Positions 742 to 29,715 of a stretch of 64,000 nt of DNA are shown here, piece by piece. The translations under genes and the position numbers were made by a program. Numbering within the stretch: the stretch's first letter is position 1; the number at the start of each line of letters is the position of its first letter. Origin of the DNA: Allosphingosinicella vermicomposti. Its GTDB lineage: Bacteria > Pseudomonadota > Alphaproteobacteria > Sphingomonadales > Sphingomonadaceae. The notes under the pieces are model-generated. The model was not told the origin of the DNA. It did not search any database and saw nothing but the letters and a program-made list of their open reading frames with translations. The stretch is taken from NCBI RefSeq assembly GCF_003012815.1, contig NZ_PXYJ01000001.1, positions 806,001 to 870,000 on the forward strand. The letters run 5' to 3'.

Positions 742-1197
742 CTATTTCCGCTTTTCGGTAAACATGAACGTCCCCGTCACATTCGCCACCAGATCCTCCG
801 GGTCGCCGTCATGCGCCACGCCCCGGACGAAGGCGATCTTGCTGGTGATGCGGTAGCATTCCCCACGCCCGATGATCGTGCGGCCGGGCACGGCGGGACG
901 GAGGTAATCGATCCGCATGTCGAGCGTCGCCTGATGACGGAAGCGGTTGAGCTTGATCCAGATCGCCATACTCGTCGCCATGTCCATCAGGCTGATGATC
1001 GGGCCCGATGCAATGACGCCGGTTTCCTCGACGCCGATCAATTCCTCGCGGTAATCGAGGGATAATTCCGCCCAATCCGGCCCATGCGCGCGATAGTCGA
1101 TGCCCAGTGCTCCGCCATGCCCGACTTTCCCTGCCAAGTCCGCAAACAGCTTCGGATCGAAGCCCTGCATGTCGCGGAGGGCATCGGCGGCGTTCAT
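742..1197 (-). CDS. PaaI-family hotdog thioesterase
   Basis: A 151-aa single-domain hotdog-fold protein, the usual length for PaaI/YbgC-like acyl-CoA thioesterases. The segment ASGPIISLMDMATSMAIW is the hotdog helix carrying the catalytic Asp. It is followed by LDMRIDYLRPAVPG, the usual strand and turn. The ATG at 1197 overlaps the sufE stop codon (ATGA), so the two genes are probably translationally coupled. The open frame continues further upstream, but that part reads through sufE in another frame and is not coding. The substrate cannot be told from sequence. Confidence 0.88.
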   Translation of the reverse strand: MNAADALRDMQGFDPKLFADLAGKVGHGGALGIDYRAHGPDWAELSLDYREELIGVEETGVIASGPIISLMDMATSMAIWIKLNRFRHQATLDMRIDYLRPAVPGRTIIGRGECYRITSKIAFVRGVAHDGDPEDLVANVTGTFMFTEKRK

Positions 1198-1601
1198 ACG
1201 TCCATCCGCTCGGCCGTTTGGCGGATGAGCGAGATCATGTTCGGAATCCCTTGCGTACGGTTGGAACTGAGCTGATTCTTGAGATCGAAGGGGCCAAGCG
1301 CGGCCTCGATATCCGTCGCGAGAATATCCCTGGCGGTTCGATCCTGCACTGCCGCGAGAACAAGCGCGATGATGCCCTTCGTGATCGCGGCATTGCTGTC
1401 GGCGAGGAAGTGCAGGCGCCCGTTTTCCTGTGGCATCGGATAGACCCACACAGCCGCCGAACAGCCGCGCACAAGCGTAGCGTCGGTTTTCAATGCATCG
1501 GGCATCGGCTCGAGCGCGCGGCCAAGGTCGATCAGCAGCCGGTAGCGATCGTCGGCCTCAAGCAGTTCGTAATCGGCGTAAATATCGTCGAGCGCGGTCA
1601 T
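1194..1601 (-). CDS. sufE: SufE-family cysteine desulfuration protein
   Basis: A 135-aa protein of the SufE family, which accepts persulfide sulfur from the cysteine desulfurase SufS and delivers it for Fe-S cluster assembly. The family's active-site loop is seen as LVRGCSAAVW, with the acceptor Cys at residue 47, and the helical C-terminus is typical. No suf operon genes are adjacent; its only partner here is the overlapping thioesterase gene downstream. This stand-alone placement is common in alphaproteobacteria. The start ATG fits the normal family N-terminus. Confidence 0.92.
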   Translation of the reverse strand: MTALDDIYADYELLEADDRYRLLIDLGRALEPMPDALKTDATLVRGCSAAVWVYPMPQENGRLHFLADSNAAITKGIIALVLAAVQDRTARDILATDIEAALGPFDLKNQLSSNRTQGIPNMISLIRQTAERMDV

Positions 1602-1630: not shown

Positions 1631-1710
1631 CGTCACCCCGGCGGAAGCCGGGGTCTCAGGACAAAAGGGTGCGATCTCGTCACGAGATCCCGGCTTCCGC
1701 CGGGATGACG
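1631..1710. repeat. Family A imperfect palindrome
   Basis: Second copy of the family A element, separated from the first by only the thioesterase and sufE genes. The left arm is CACCCCGGCGGAAGCCGGGG and the right arm CCCGGCTTCCGCCGGGATGAC. Even the inter-arm sequence GGTGCGATCT followed by CACGAGATC matches the copy at 656-736. It fills the gap between sufE and the end of the psp operon. Confidence 0.9.
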
Positions 1711-1719
1711 GCGAAGGGA

Positions 1720-1965
1720 TCAACGCTGATCCCGCAGCTTTTCGATCTCGCGCTCCAGGCTGCTTTCCTTGTCGGTCGCGATGCGCTCCAGCACGGCGAC
1801 GCGATCACGGAGCATCTTTACCTCGTCGCGCAGTCGCGCCGATTCCTGATCATTCACATGATATTCGTTACCATGGCGGTCGCGGCGGACGCCATATTTG
1901 GCCTTGAGGATCCCGGCGATGGAGACGATGGCGACAATGATCACCACCATTTCAAACGGATTCAT
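1720..1965 (-). CDS. Small membrane protein with PspB/PspC-like tail (psp operon, last gene)
   Basis: An 81-aa protein with one N-terminal transmembrane helix (about residues 5-22, MVVIIVAIVSIAGIL) and a charged, coiled-coil C-terminus. Its last ~25 residues, RVAVLERIATDKESSLEREI, follow the pattern R-x-x-x-x-E-R-I-x-T-D-x4-L-x-x-E-I-x-x-L-R. The two genes upstream in the operon share this pattern, and the C-terminus of PspC has a looser version. I do not recognise a named family. Its position 37 bp behind the previous psp-type gene suggests co-transcription and a role in envelope stress. That role is inferred from context only. Confidence 0.75.
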   Translation of the reverse strand: MNPFEMVVIIVAIVSIAGILKAKYGVRRDRHGNEYHVNDQESARLRDEVKMLRDRVAVLERIATDKESSLEREIEKLRDQR

Positions 1966-2002
1966 GCGACGAAGCTCCTTTTTCGCTTAGTCTATCAGCG
2001 AT

Positions 2003-2323
2003 TTAGTTTTTCGGAAGGCGTAGGGCTTCGATTTCCTGCGTCAGCCGGTGGCTGTCGTCCGTCACGATCCGCTCGACCGTTGCAAGCCGATCCTTGATCG
2101 AACCGAGTTCGGCGCGGAGCTGCGCATTTTCCTGTGTGATCAGTTTCACGCGCTCCACCATCTCGTCATTGATCTTCGGATAGATCGGCTTTCCCCAGCT
2201 GTTTTCGAGCGGATAGCCGTTCTTGATCCGAAGCCAAGTGGTGAAGATCCAGCCGCCGATGGCGAGAAGGCCCAAGATCCCGAAAAGCGGGAAGAATTGG
2301 GATATGAAGGTGAACTTATCCAT
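2003..2323 (-). CDS. Small membrane protein with PspB/PspC-like tail (psp operon)
   Basis: A 106-aa protein with a transmembrane helix at about residues 9-30 (FFPLFGILGLLAIGGWIF). A hydrophilic middle follows (YPLENSWGKPIYPKIND), then a coiled coil ending RLATVERIVTDDSHRLTQEI and EALR. The final motif matches its two operon neighbours and resembles the PspC tail. It starts 11 bp after the upstream small gene. No named family is recognised. One helix plus a cytoplasmic coiled coil resembles PspB, suggesting a duplicated or accessory member of the PspB class. Confidence 0.75.
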   Translation of the reverse strand: MDKFTFISQFFPLFGILGLLAIGGWIFTTWLRIKNGYPLENSWGKPIYPKINDEMVERVKLITQENAQLRAELGSIKDRLATVERIVTDDSHRLTQEIEALRLPKN

Positions 2324-2334
2324 GACGGGCGTCC

Positions 2335-2601
2335 TCAGTTCATGCGCTCGTCGCGCAAATCGTCAATCTGTGCGGCAAGGTCTCCGCCTTTGTCCGTTGC
2401 GATGCGTTCCAGCACCCGCATACGCTGCTCCAGCCGCTCGATATGCGCGGCCTGGGCCGCTGCCTTGTCTGCGGCGAGCTGAGCGGCATGATCGAGCTGC
2501 TTTTCCTTAAGGCGCATCCATCTTTTCAACAGGTCGCCGCACACCCCCAGGATGACGGGCAGGCCGATGACGATGAAAGCAAGTAGAACGGCTTTATCCA
2601 T
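2335..2601 (-). CDS. PspB-like small membrane protein (psp operon)
   Basis: An 88-aa protein closest in layout to PspB: an N-terminal helix (about residues 4-24, VLLAFIVIGLPVILGVCGDLL), a Lys/Ala-rich linker, then a heptad-patterned tail containing RMRVLERIATDKGGDLAAQI and DDLRDER. It lies 24 bp downstream of pspC. The ERIATDK core is identical to that of the last gene of the operon. It could be a PspB paralogue that interacts with PspA or PspC; direct evidence is lacking. Confidence 0.75.
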   Translation of the reverse strand: MDKAVLLAFIVIGLPVILGVCGDLLKRWMRLKEKQLDHAAQLAADKAAAQAAHIERLEQRMRVLERIATDKGGDLAAQIDDLRDERMN

Positions 2602-2625
2602 GTCCTTGTCCTTCGGTTGACGAAA

Positions 2626-3006
2626 TCAGCGCAGCTTTTCGATTTCATTGGCGAGCCGGTTGTTCGAACTCGTCACATAGGTTTCAATGTCGGCGAGGCG
2701 CCGGTCGATGTCGCGGAACTTGGAGCGCACCGCCTTCACCGTCCGGGTGGGATTGGCGCGGACGCCTTGCCAAAACTTTTTGTCGTCCGGCGTGCTATAC
2801 TCCAGCTCCCGGGGCTTCGACGGGGCGATGTAGCCCGCGATCAGATAAGCGACGATAAGCGCGCCGGAGCCAAGCACCGTGCCGATCAACACGGCGATTC
2901 GAACGACCGTCGCGTCGATACCGGTATAGTCTGCGATCCCCGCACAGACGCCCAACCATTTGGCATTTTGCTTGTCGAGGTAGAATTTTGTCTGGCTCGC
3001 GCTCAT
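2626..3006 (-). CDS. pspC: Phage-shock protein C
   Basis: A 126-aa inner-membrane protein of the Psp envelope-stress system. The PspC domain occupies the first ~65 residues: KFYLDKQNAKWLGVCAGIAD leads into a hydrophobic helix with TVLGSGALIVAYLIAGYIAP. The C-terminal half is cytoplasmic and coiled, ending RRLADIETYVTSSNNRLANE and IEKLR, like the tails of the small downstream genes. In characterised systems PspB and PspC sense membrane damage and release PspA from PspF. The ATG overlaps the pspB stop codon (ATGA at 3003-3006). Confidence 0.93.
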   Translation of the reverse strand: MSASQTKFYLDKQNAKWLGVCAGIADYTGIDATVVRIAVLIGTVLGSGALIVAYLIAGYIAPSKPRELEYSTPDDKKFWQGVRANPTRTVKAVRSKFRDIDRRLADIETYVTSSNNRLANEIEKLR

Positions 3007-3311
3007 TTCCGGAGGCTCCTCAGTTCGCTGAGATCGCGATCGATCTCGCTCATGTCACGGATGCCCAGCCGCTCCACAGGATCCTGCGTCATCGACCGCC
3101 AGCCGGGATTTTCCGCGGACATGATCCGCTCGATCGTCGACAGGCGTTCTTCCAGACGGCGTGCCGTGTCGTGCATGTCGTTTAGGAGGCTTTCGTCCTC
3201 AGTCGTGAGCGTTGCAGCGCTCTTCCACTTGGTAATGTAGTGAAAAACCAGCCAAGGCAGGCCGATGAAGAGCATGCCCACGACGAAAATGGGAACAAGG
3301 ACTTCTTCCAT
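3003..3311 (-). CDS. pspB: Phage-shock protein B
   Basis: A 102-aa PspB: an N-terminal membrane helix (residues ~5-24, VLVPIFVVGMLFIGLPWLVF) followed by HYITKW and a coiled coil with RRLEERLSTIERIMSAENPG. It is longer than the ~75-aa enterobacterial protein because of an extra tail (RSMTQDPVERLGIRDMSEID). It lies 4 bp behind pspA and overlaps pspC, so the three are almost certainly one transcript. PspB works with PspC in signalling membrane stress. Confidence 0.92.
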   Translation of the reverse strand: MEEVLVPIFVVGMLFIGLPWLVFHYITKWKSAATLTTEDESLLNDMHDTARRLEERLSTIERIMSAENPGWRSMTQDPVERLGIRDMSEIDRDLSELRSLRK

Positions 3312-3315
3312 CTGC

Positions 3316-3993
3316 TCAGCCCTCCTGGCCAGTGTTGCGGGTTTTGGCCTTCAAAGCTTCAAGCTCGGCCTCGATCTTCTCGGCATTGCGAAGCTCGGCA
3401 ATTTCTTCTTCCAGCGTTTTGGGCGGGGCGCCCAGCGCCAGCGCGTCGACATGGCCCTCGGCAATGTCCACGCGACGCTCCAGCACGTCAAAGCGGCTGA
3501 ACGCATCCTCGGTTTTGGGGCCGGCATACATTTCGCGGAGGCGGGCGCGGTTATGCGCGCTTTCCATGCGGCTGTTGATCGCATTCTGGCGGGTGCGGGC
3601 TTCACGCAGCTTGGTCTGAAGCTTCGCGATATCGGCTTCCGATGCGCGCAGGGCGTCGTCCAGCACGGCAATTTCAGTCTTCAAGCTATCGGCCATTTCG
3701 GCGGCTTTCTGCTTCTCCATCAGCGCGGCCTTGGCGAGATCCTCGCGATCTTTAGAGAGCGCCAGTTCGGCCTTTTCGACCCAGCCTTCCTGGATCTTGT
3801 CCAGCTTCGCGATCTGGCGACGCATTTCTTTCTGATCCGCGATCGAACGGGCGGCGGACGCGCGCACTTCGACCAGCGTTTCCTCCATTTCGAGGATGAT
3901 CATCCGGATCATCTTGCCCGGATCCTCCGCCTTGTCGAGCAGGTCGGTCACATTGGCGGCGATGATGTCGCGTGTCCGCGAAAAGATACCCAT
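3316..3993 (-). CDS. pspA: Phage-shock protein A
   Basis: A 225-aa PspA/IM30/Vipp1 family protein, a peripheral inner-membrane protein that stabilises damaged membranes and inhibits PspF. It begins with the typical amphipathic helix MGIFSRTRDIIAANVTDLLD, then EDPGKMIRMIILEMEETLVE, and is coiled-coil throughout. Length and start agree with the family. A purine-rich AAGGAG lies 11 bases before the ATG. It is preceded in the same direction by a small exported-peptide gene and a sigma-54-type promoter, and followed by pspB after 4 bp. Confidence 0.96.
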   Translation of the reverse strand: MGIFSRTRDIIAANVTDLLDKAEDPGKMIRMIILEMEETLVEVRASAARSIADQKEMRRQIAKLDKIQEGWVEKAELALSKDREDLAKAALMEKQKAAEMADSLKTEIAVLDDALRASEADIAKLQTKLREARTRQNAINSRMESAHNRARLREMYAGPKTEDAFSRFDVLERRVDIAEGHVDALALGAPPKTLEEEIAELRNAEKIEAELEALKAKTRNTGQEG

Positions 3994-4064: not shown

Positions 4065-4208
4065 TCAGGCACTCAATACGGAAACCACTTGTGCCTGTTC
4101 CGCCGCTGCCGGAGCAACCGCCATGCCGATGCAGGTGGCGCTGAGAACGAGGGCGGCCACGGCAGAGGCTGCAACACGCTGAATGCTGTTGAGGTCGATG
4201 TTGAACAT
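4065..4208 (-). CDS. 47-aa exported peptide between the psp promoter and pspA
   Basis: A short open frame: MFNIDLNSIQRVAASAVAAL, then VLSATCIGMAVAPAAAEQ and AQVVSVLSA. It has a basic start, a hydrophobic core and an AxA-type cleavage site, so the mature product would be only about 10 residues, or the peptide stays membrane-anchored. AAGGAG lies 7 bases before the ATG at 4208; an in-frame ATG at 4214 is too close to it. The frame lies directly downstream of the sigma-54-type promoter and 71 bp ahead of pspA, so it would be the first cistron of the psp transcript. I know of no named family. It is too small to be sure without conservation data. Confidence 0.6.
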   Translation of the reverse strand: MFNIDLNSIQRVAASAVAALVLSATCIGMAVAPAAAEQAQVVSVLSA

Positions 4209-4263
4209 GGTCATTCTCCTTGAACCCTGGACCGCCTGTTCCGGCGGCTCTTGCCATTTACGC

Positions 4264-4279
4264 TACAAGAGCCGTGCCA
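4264..4279 (-). promoter_or_regulatory. Sigma-54 promoter for the psp operon
   Basis: On the minus strand the sequence reads TGGCACGGCTCTTGTA. Compared with the sigma-54 consensus TGGCACG-N4-TTGC(A/T), the -24 block matches fully and the -12 block has one change (TTGT for TTGC). Predicted transcription would start near 4254, about 46 bases before the 47-aa peptide gene. It faces pspA, and the activator gene pspF is divergent. PspF is a sigma-54 enhancer-binding protein, so the site makes functional sense. Confidence 0.75.
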
Positions 4280-4379: not shown

Positions 4380-5411
4380 ATGGAGCGCACCACGCAGCTT
4401 GTTGGCCAATCCTCCTCCTTCCTTGATGCAATCGAGCGGGCGAGCCGTGCCGCGCCGCTGGACCGGCCGGTCCTGGTGATCGGCGAGCGCGGGACCGGTA
4501 AGGAGCTGGTGGCCGAGCGCCTCCATCACTTGTCTTCGCGCTGGGACGGGCCGTTGGTCGTCATGAACTGCGCGGCTTTGCCCGAGACGTTGATCGAAGC
4601 GGAATTGTTCGGCCATGAAGCGGGCGCCTTCACCGGCGCGTCCAAGGCGCGGGCAGGGCGGTTTGAGGAAGCGGACGGGGGAACCCTGTTTCTGGACGAA
4701 CTCGCGACCTTGTCCTCTGCCGCGCAGGACCGGCTTCTTCGGGCGGTCGAATATGGCGAGGTGACGCGGATCGGCGCCAGCCGTCCGATGCGGGTTGACG
4801 TGCGCATTGTTGCCGCGACCAACGAGCATCTGCCCAAATTGGTGGACGAGGGGCGGTTCCGCGCCGACCTTCTCGACCGCCTGTGTTTCGAAGTCGTGAC
4901 GCTGCCGCCGCTCCGCAACCGGATCAGCGACATCCCCGTCCTCGCCGATCATTTCGCCCGGCGTATGGCGCTGGAGCTCGATTGGCCGGAATGGCCGGGC
5001 TTCAGCACTAACGCCATCGACCGCATGCTGAGTTACGACTGGCCGGGCAATGTACGTGAGCTGCGCAATGTGATCGAGCGGGCCGTTTATCGCTGGGAGG
5101 ATTCGAAAAATCCGGTCGATTATATCCAGTTCGACCCTTTCGAATCGCCCTGGCGTCCCCAGCCGATGTCGCCGACGAAGACCGAGGCCAGCCCCGCCGA
5201 GGTGCAGGCGGTCGCAGCCATCTCCGCCGCTTATGATCCGTCCAATTGTGCGGATTTTCGCCTCGCCGTCGCCGAATATGAAAAGGCGATCCTCGCCGCC
5301 GCGCTCGATAAATGTCGCTGGAATCAGCGTGCGGCGGCGACCGCGCTTCAGTTGACCTACGATCAGCTCCGTCACGCGATGAAGCGGCACAAGCTCGGCG
5401 AGAAGGGCTGA
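4380..5411 (+). CDS. pspF: Psp operon transcriptional activator PspF
   Basis: A 343-aa sigma-54 enhancer-binding protein without a receiver domain, as expected for PspF. The AAA+ domain begins at once: Walker A GERGTGKE (35-42), the sigma-54 contact loop GAFTGA (82-87), Walker B GGTLFLDE (100-107), and WPGNVRELRNVIERAVYR. A Fis-type helix-turn-helix closes the protein (WNQRAAATALQLTYDQLRHA). ATG at 4380 is chosen because PspF proteins have only a few residues before LVGQS; the frame is open upstream but would run through the putative activator site. It is divergent from the psp operon it should control, with PspA as the likely inhibitor. Confidence 0.94.
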   Translation: MERTTQLVGQSSSFLDAIERASRAAPLDRPVLVIGERGTGKELVAERLHHLSSRWDGPLVVMNCAALPETLIEAELFGHEAGAFTGASKARAGRFEEADGGTLFLDELATLSSAAQDRLLRAVEYGEVTRIGASRPMRVDVRIVAATNEHLPKLVDEGRFRADLLDRLCFEVVTLPPLRNRISDIPVLADHFARRMALELDWPEWPGFSTNAIDRMLSYDWPGNVRELRNVIERAVYRWEDSKNPVDYIQFDPFESPWRPQPMSPTKTEASPAEVQAVAAISAAYDPSNCADFRLAVAEYEKAILAAALDKCRWNQRAAATALQLTYDQLRHAMKRHKLGEKG

Positions 5412-9662: not shown

Positions 9663-10969
9663 GCGGCCTCTCCGATCAGCATTTCGTTTTCCAAACCTGT
9701 GACTTTCACTTCCACGATCTTACCAACTTCGCGGGCCTGACGGATGAGGACGGGCGCGAAGCTCTCCGCATGGCCTTTGACGCCGCTGCGTTCGATCAAC
9801 ACCTTCTGGCGGGTGCCGATCATGCTTTCCAGCCATTTCACTTTCTGCCGCGCCGTTGCCTCCCGCATGCGGGCCGCGCGTTCTTTCACCTGCTTCGGAT
9901 CGACCTGCGGCATACGCGCGGCCGGGGTGCCTTGCCGGGGCGAGAAGGGAAAGATGTGGCCCATCACGATTTCGCAATCGTCGATGAGGCGCAGGCTGTT
10001 TTCGGCCATCTCTTCGGTTTCGGTCGGGAAGCCAGCGATGAGGTCCGCGCCGATGGCGATTTCCGGCCGCTTGGCTTTAAGGCGCTGGACCATCTCGACG
10101 GCCTGGGCACGGCTGTGGCGGCGCTTCATCCTTTTCAGGATCATGTCGTCGCCCGCCTGAAAGGACATGTGGAGGTGCGGCATGAAGCGCGGCTCGCCGG
10201 TAATGATGTCGAACAAGCGATCGTCGATCTCCACGCTGTCGAGGGATGAGAGGCGAAGGCGGGGGAGGACGGGGACGTGGCGGAGGATGCGCTCGACAAG
10301 CTGGCCCAATGTCGGTGCGCCGGGGAGATCGGGGCCGTAGCTGGTCACGTCGACGCCGGTCAGGACGATTTCGTTATAGCCCTCGTCCACCAATGCCTTG
10401 ATCTTGTCGATGACTAGGCCGGCGGGGACCGAGCGGCTGTTTCCCCGGCCGTAGGGGATGATGCAGAAGGTGCAGCGATGATCGCAGCCATTCTGCACTT
10501 CGACAAAGGCGCGGCTGTGTTCGGCAAAGCCCGTGACGAGGTGGGGGGCGGTTTCGCGGACGGCCATGATGTCCGACACGCGGATTTCGGCATGATCCGT
10601 CATCCCGGCGAAAGCCGGGATCTCTTGGATGGTGGGTTCGGTGTTTTTTCTTTCCTGAGATTCCGGCTTTCGCCGGAATGACGATGAGAGGAACTTCTCG
10701 CGGTTCCCGATCACCCCCGATACTTCGGGCATTGCCGCGAAGCTTGCGGGGTCGACCTGTGCGGCGCAGCCGGTGACGATGACGCGAGCGTCGGGGCGGG
10801 CCTTCTTGGCGCGGCGGATGGCTTGGCGCGTTTGACGGACGGCTTCGTTGGTGACGGCGCAGCTGTTGACGATGACGAGATCGTCCTGCCCGCCGGCAAG
10901 CGCTCGCATCGTTTCGCTTTCCGCCATGTTGAGGCGGCAGCCCATGGTGATGATCTCGGGGCTGGTCAC
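9659..10969 (-). CDS. mtaB: tRNA t6A37 methylthiotransferase MtaB with an in-frame repeat-derived insert
   Basis: A 436-aa radical-SAM enzyme that adds a methylthio group to t6A at tRNA position 37. The N-terminal cluster Cys are C11, C37 and C68 (MGCRLN, NSCAVT, TGCAAQ). The radical-SAM CxxxCxxC is C162-C166-C169 (NGCDHRCTFC), and a TRAM-like C-terminus follows. The GTG start at 10969 overlaps the dapF stop (GTGA). Residues about 95-125 (SSFRRKPESQERKNTEPTIQ, then EIPAFAGMTD) are encoded by a family A palindrome and look foreign. They lie in the linker between the N-terminal and radical-SAM domains, so the enzyme may still work. Confidence 0.93.
   Translation of the reverse strand: MTSPEIITMGCRLNMAESETMRALAGGQDDLVIVNSCAVTNEAVRQTRQAIRRAKKARPDARVIVTGCAAQVDPASFAAMPEVSGVIGNREKFLSSSFRRKPESQERKNTEPTIQEIPAFAGMTDHAEIRVSDIMAVRETAPHLVTGFAEHSRAFVEVQNGCDHRCTFCIIPYGRGNSRSVPAGLVIDKIKALVDEGYNEIVLTGVDVTSYGPDLPGAPTLGQLVERILRHVPVLPRLRLSSLDSVEIDDRLFDIITGEPRFMPHLHMSFQAGDDMILKRMKRRHSRAQAVEMVQRLKAKRPEIAIGADLIAGFPTETEEMAENSLRLIDDCEIVMGHIFPFSPRQGTPAARMPQVDPKQVKERAARMREATARQKVKWLESMIGTRQKVLIERSGVKGHAESFAPVLIRQAREVGKIVEVKVTGLENEMLIGEAA
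10599..10683. repeat. Family A palindrome inside mtaB
   Basis: Arms GTCATCCCGGCGAAAGCCGGGA and TTCCGGCTTTCGCCGGAATGAC lie within the mtaB reading frame, which stays open through them. They encode the peptide SFRRKPES...EIPAFAGMT on the minus strand. The other copies in the window are intergenic. This is the same outcome as palindromic elements known to sit inside Rickettsia genes. Confidence 0.93.
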
Positions 10970-29637: not shown

Positions 29638-29715
29638 GTTACCCGGCGAAAGCGGGGGGCTAGCGACGAAATTGCATCAAATGGTCCTGAGATCCCGGCT
29701 TTCGCCGGGATGACG
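29638..29715. repeat. Family A palindrome, degenerate left arm
   Basis: The left arm ACCCGGCGAAAGCGGGGGGC has lost symmetry; the right arm GATCCCGGCTTTCGCCGGGA with TGACG is intact. It starts 11 bp after yqgE. The degenerate arm suggests an older, decaying copy. Confidence 0.85.

Follow-up and report, generated by a model that had tools for sequence, protein, structure and literature searches.

An array of divergent PspB-like proteins with PspC-type tails in the psp operon of Sphingomonadaceae

Beyond pspC, the psp operon of Allosphingosinicella vermicomposti continues with three small genes, here called X1, X2 and X3, and the locus raises the question of what their products are and whether they belong to the Psp system. 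In the window, a stretch of 64,000 nucleotides from a genome of 2.5 Mb, the order is leader ORF-pspA-pspB-pspC-X1-X2-X3, with pspF divergent upstream (Table 1). Downstream lie two genes that we take, by recognition rather than by family search, to encode a SufE-like and a thioesterase-like protein. PspA, PspB, PspC and PspF of the window all score above the curated cut-offs of their families. An initial annotation of this DNA had given the coordinates and lengths of pspB, pspC and the X genes correctly, and the single N-terminal helix and coiled-coil tail that it assigned to each X protein were found in all three.

Table 1. Positions of features in the window and of the zinc-ribbon-like tailed protein in other loci.
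Feature	Position	Strand	Description
SufE-like and thioesterase-like genes	1194-1601 and 742-1449	-	downstream border of the array
Palindromic repeat pair	1631..1710	.	directly after X3, between psp array and sufE
Palindromic repeat copies	709-736, 1631-1658, 1683-1710, 10598-10625, 29688-29715	.	one inverted pair just after X3
X3	1720..1965	-	81 aa; single N-terminal TM helix, Lys/Arg-rich juxtamembrane segment, coiled coil, tail RVAVLERIATDKESSLEREIEKLR
X2	2003..2323	-	106 aa; TM helix, conserved juxtamembrane motif WLRIKNGYPL-x3-WG, coiled coil, tail RLATVERIVTDDSHRLTQEIEALR
X1	2335..2601	-	88 aa; TM helix, coiled coil, tail RMRVLERIATDKGGDLAAQIDDLR
pspC	2626..3006	-	126 aa; TIGR02978 E 2e-33, above cut-off; C-terminal tail RLADIETYVTSSNNRLANEIEKLR
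pspB	3003..3311	-	102 aa; PF06667 E 5e-27, TIGR02976 E 2e-23
pspA	3316..3993	-	225 aa; TIGR02977 E 1.5e-80, above cut-off
Leader ORF	4065..4214	-	49 aa with a single hydrophobic segment; first gene downstream of the sigma-54 site, ahead of pspA
Candidate sigma-54 promoter	4265..4279	-	TGGCACGGCTCTTGT, 1 mismatch vs TGGCACGNNNNTTGC
pspF	4380..5411	+	divergent sigma-54 activator; TIGR02974 E 3.5e-146, above cut-off; start 4380 chosen
Zinc-ribbon-like tailed protein	L145:5766-6260, L146:5228-5617, L147:5513-5905		near SDR-type and IMP dehydrogenase-like genes

The tails of the X proteins resemble one another more than random coiled coils would. A profile (A3) was built from 28 X proteins, comprising the window's three and a random draw from 226, and its search of the whole source genome in six frames returned six places at E<=1. 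These were X3 (1.9e-25), X1 (5.8e-24), X2 (2.3e-21), the PspC of a second psp locus (6e-6), the PspC of the window (1.4e-4) and, weakly, PspB (0.03). Likewise, a profile restricted to subfamilies X2 and X4 recovered X1, X3, both PspC tails and nothing else from this genome at E<=1e-3. When scored with a matrix of the X tail, all 23 PspC tails tested exceeded the 99.9% level of shuffled sequences with an unchanged hydrophobic pattern, a result that is partly selected because these tails were chosen from 80 PspC sequences by the motif [LIVM]E.Y[VLAM]T, which itself lies within the tail. The coiled coil of PspA scored at chance level with the same matrix. A single TM helix followed by a coiled coil is a common design, and FtsB, FtsL and DivIC are among the weak matches of the X proteins, as might be expected if unrelated small membrane proteins had come to look alike by convergence. 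However, FtsL, FtsB and the other coiled coils of the source genome go unmatched by profile A3 at E<=1, the tail matches exceed pattern-preserving shuffles, and the location and order of the genes are kept across Sphingomonadaceae. We therefore disfavor convergence, which appears very improbable.

The initial annotation had held that one tail is common to five consecutive gene products. This stands for X1, X2, X3 and PspC, whose own tail aligns to the X tails ungapped over its full length of about 30 residues, but it was overstated for PspB. What PspB has in common with the X tails is the first half of the module, a RL-x2-(I/L)ERI core that reads RLSTIERI in the window. Because PspB carries this half only, most PspB sequences fail the ungapped tail test, in which 2% of them beat the null.

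Comparisons of whole proteins point to the same two families. By hhalign, the X subfamilies match one another with probabilities of 95-99.8%, the PspC tail with 73-95% (92-95% for X2-X5) and PspB with 49-91%. Among the 28 X proteins, 18 matched the PspB model TIGR02976 (best 1.1e-6), 11 the Pfam PspB family (best 2.9e-6) and 16 the PspC model TIGR02978 (best 1.7e-4), and PspB is the family matched by most of them in both Pfam and NCBIfam. The Pfam cut-off for PspB (25.6 bits) is even exceeded inside the X arrays of three genomes (G145, 32.8; G084, 27.5; G058, 26.2). The window's own X proteins have sub-threshold matches to PspB or PspC and lie below every curated cut-off. With PspB models, X1 and X3 reach 13.9-15.4 bits at best, compared to cut-offs of 25.6 (Pfam) and of 51.7 and 90 (NCBIfam). 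X2 matches neither PF06667 nor TIGR02976, and its sub-threshold match is to positions 72-121 of TIGR02978 (E 6e-4), approximately the part of that model that represents the PspC tail. Since X1-X3 miss the curated cut-offs, we limit our claim to divergent PspB-family paralogues. That the X proteins are such paralogues with a PspC-type end is well supported by the whole-protein profiles together with the tail tests and the conservation of the genes in other psp loci.

Like PspB, the X proteins have one N-terminal TM helix and a short helical part, predicted to be cytoplasmic, that contains RL-x2-(I/L/M)ERI, and their genes adjoin those of PspB and PspC. Unlike PspB, which ends in E-x-P-x-W, they continue after ERI with TD-x4-L-x2-EI-x2-LR, and an authentic PspB is present beside them. 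They share the tail of PspC, but a Pfam search found no PspC domain (PF04024) in X1-X3. PspD and PspG are small accessory proteins of the gammaproteobacterial psp regulon, and the PspG model (TIGR02975) yielded one weak match (0.023) in a single X protein of the 28. Hydropathy predicts a TM helix for 225 of the 226 X genes, and the Lys/Arg residues that follow it suggest an orientation with the tail in the cytoplasm. An AlphaFold2 model of X2 (mean pLDDT 73), with a long first helix at residues 2-35 and a second helix at 53-102 comprising the coiled coil and the tail, fits a design of TM helix plus cytoplasmic helix, although such a model discriminates between no roles. The corresponding model of PspC was too poor for use (mean pLDDT 56.8), and a search of solved structures returned generic helical or coiled-coil chains and no relative of PspB, PspC or X. 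An origin from phage holins (PF09682, E 0.039) was rejected, as were matches to bZIP, BicD, DivIC and similar families, all being weak and inconsistent.

To determine how widely the X genes occur, we searched 120 genomes of Sphingomonadaceae (Sphingomonas, Sphingopyxis, Sphingobium, Sphingorhabdus, Blastomonas and others) and 237 other alphaproteobacterial genomes. The X2/X4 profile found a match in 110 of the 120 family members, which was strong (E<1e-15) in 86. PspA is present in 113, and all seven genomes that lack it are among the ten that lack an X match. By eye, strong matches share a contig with pspA, the sole exception being a fragmented assembly (G091). Outside the family, none of the 237 genomes gave a strong match and two (G299, G383) gave weak ones, whereas PspB exceeds the Pfam cut-off in 25 of them and matches weakly in one more (G269). 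Among these outside genomes, the X3 profile matched strongly once, in G299 at a distance of 81 kb from PspB, and weakly in G247 and G353. Conservation of X genes in other psp loci and their co-occurrence with PspA, for which the initial annotation had proposed a search, are thus borne out by this search and by the operons described below. Two minor observations concern other alphaproteobacterial families. A tandem pair of small X3-like genes forms the distant locus of G299 (L148:5227-5709), and two genomes of another family carry PspB duplicates, each with two above-cut-off places about 1.2 kb apart (G292:C1:2862397-2863801 and G372:C15:120574-121979).

We examined the anatomy of the array in 63 Sphingomonadaceae operons that have pspF and a downstream sufE or thioesterase gene in view. 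Between pspC and sufE, 61 of the 63 carry X genes, from one to eight each (mean 3.6, usually three to five), and these counts come from a classifier that may miss divergent copies. Five subfamilies recur: X3 in 56 operons, X1 in 49, X2 in 46, X4 in 30 and X5 in 16. X3 closes the run of X genes in 56 of the 61 X-bearing operons, and a small gene, Y, whose end is related but shorter, follows the X genes in 51. The SufE-like and thioesterase-like genes border the array in most operons of the family. Given two operons of the Sphingomonadaceae type that have no X gene (L096, L130), the set is apparently dispensable somewhere. In other families of the order, a psp operon is present at nine loci (L031-L036, L038-L040), none of which has X genes, and in seven of them pspA, pspB and pspC are followed by a sufE-like gene with no recognized X or Y gene between. 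Two loci without a recognized psp gene were left out, the third pspA match of a same-genus genome (L037) and the second of an other-family genome (L066). Another of the nine loci, beside these seven, has an extra gene between pspA and pspB for a short protein with a PspC domain (L038:5043-5261). The source genome also has a second psp locus (G000:C2:412281-415925; L022, L053) with pspA, pspC and a Y-type gene but no recognized pspF, which in several relatives lies upstream of 2-oxoacid dehydrogenase genes.

The X genes of one operon are old relatives. For 224 of the 226, the best match lies outside their own operon, and for 212 it belongs to the same subfamily; the subfamilies are therefore older than the sampled genera. 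Recent tandem duplication, with only two genes matching their own operon best, was rejected as the main source. Within operons, mean identity is 49% for the tails and 24% for the N-terminal parts, and judged by these values constraint falls on the tail, whereas the membrane part varies. These data bear on the possibility that the X proteins are effectors, that is, extra membrane anchors that would bind PspA oligomers once induced and add docking capacity while having no part in the release of PspF. A variable number of genes placed after pspC in an induced operon is what gene dosage predicts, and the PspC tail that the X tail resembles binds PspA in Yersinia (PMC5596341). However, pure dosage also predicts recent and similar copies, whereas five old subfamilies with different N-terminal parts have been kept, and we consider this role unlikely.

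We instead favor, as probable, the interpretation that X1-X3 are old PspB paralogues that join the PspBC complex as accessory subunits distinct from one another, with their tails taking part in interactions among PspC, PspB and PspA. What the data establish is that the X genes are paralogues with homologous tails that keep their order, co-occur with PspA and are conserved and old. Joining the PspBC complex is the simplest role, because these proteins combine a PspB-like membrane part with a PspC-like tail and are encoded in the same operon. Hetero-assembly and a part in sensing or docking are what we infer from this. Similarly, the proposals of the initial annotation that the proteins co-assemble, act as alternative sensors or form a scaffold for PspA would draw on their kinship with the cytoplasmic portions of PspB and PspC, for which binding to each other and to PspA is reported in Yersinia and E. 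coli (PMC5596341, PMC3068692). The weak tail match to PspB itself would count against a subunit role, and sequence cannot tell sensing from docking or damping.

If the X proteins are accessory subunits, they would be expressed with PspA, PspB and PspC behind the PspF/sigma-54 control region and inserted by one TM helix with the tail in the cytoplasm. Their tails might then join the contacts among the PspC tail, PspB and PspA that restrain or release PspF and bring PspA to the membrane, while differing TM and juxtamembrane segments could feed different membrane states or partners into one PspA pool. In Yersinia, it is in the on state that the cytoplasmic C-terminus of PspC binds PspA, which frees PspF (PMC5596341), and in E. 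coli a putative leucine zipper of PspC is required for interaction with PspA and for induction (PMC3068692). E. coli PspB associates with itself and, through putative membrane regions, with PspC (PMC3068692). Because of this association, and because PspC is still bound by PspB with a mutated leucine zipper (PMC2764110), contact between tails is not the sole route to assembly. The means by which PspB and PspC sense membrane damage are still under debate, and the X sets of Sphingomonadaceae may be regarded as natural variants in which the tail stays constant and the membrane part changes. Sensing and docking should therefore be separable by gene deletion and chimeras.

The same tail could also act in the opposite direction. 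If the X proteins were decoys or brakes, their PspC-like tails would engage PspB or PspA and, after induction, dampen or terminate the response. Homology of the tail to both PspC and PspB agrees with this, a late position in the operon suits feedback, and cytoplasmic contact between PspB and PspC reportedly silences the psp response of Yersinia (a 2016 paper cited by PMC5596341, by its title). Nevertheless, the sequence holds nothing that separates a brake from an activator, and to us such a function seems improbable.

Tails of the X type are also found outside the psp locus. A soluble, roughly 130-residue protein starts with a zinc-ribbon-like segment (PF20097, DUF6487, E 7e-5, just under the cut-off) and ends in ...RLQERVGTLEEIATDPAERTAREIEALR. 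It has a strong match in 4 of the 120 Sphingomonadaceae genomes. The tail thus need not imply membrane co-assembly, as far as can be read from such a protein. It is conceivable, although rather doubtful, that the tail works as a transferable docking module recognized by a shared hub, either PspA or PspC, with the array forming a species-variable hetero-oligomeric membrane platform and the same module present on the soluble protein. If the tail is a docking module, then the zinc-ribbon-like protein may be another client.

Copies of PspB in psp operons were already known, whereas we have not found a conserved multi-gene set, its size or its orthologous subfamilies described. The initial annotation was right that a single PspB is present in the canonical system, but duplicates in psp operons had already been noted. 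The part of Ravi et al. 2024 (PMC11237479) considered here reports PspB duplicates in psp operons, with one example accession (AOL22920.1), as well as fusions of PspC with a divergent PspB at the C-terminus. This resembles the present locus, with its extra PspB-like genes and the PspB-like end of PspC. That same part says nothing of an array of several genes, of orthologous subfamilies, of a distribution across a whole family or of separate proteins that bear a PspC-type tail. Paralogues of PspA and PspC are mentioned in a 2022 survey of where psp genes occur, and the portion considered does not describe this array (PMC9239133). A limited check of open-licence literature found no study of the psp operon of sphingomonads.

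The gaps of 24, 11 and 37 bp downstream of pspC suggest that X1-X3 are co-transcribed with the psp genes, and a weak scan for terminator-like sites on the minus strand, which found fewer sites than in shuffles, gave none from pspC to X3. Within the window alone the candidate sigma-54 match is no better than chance, with three matches at <=1 mismatch versus two expected, but sites of this form (<=2 mismatches) lie 5' of pspA in every scanned psp locus with a divergent pspF. The leader ORF had no match in Pfam or NCBIfam searches, and a small ORF of similar size and look occupies its position in most Sphingomonadaceae operons, while in the other families of the order a different small ORF precedes pspA. 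Finally, the palindromic repeat CGAGATCCCGGCTTCCGCCGGGATGACG occurs in five copies in the window (<=3 mismatches) versus none expected by chance, and the pair that follows X3 may mark the end of the operon.
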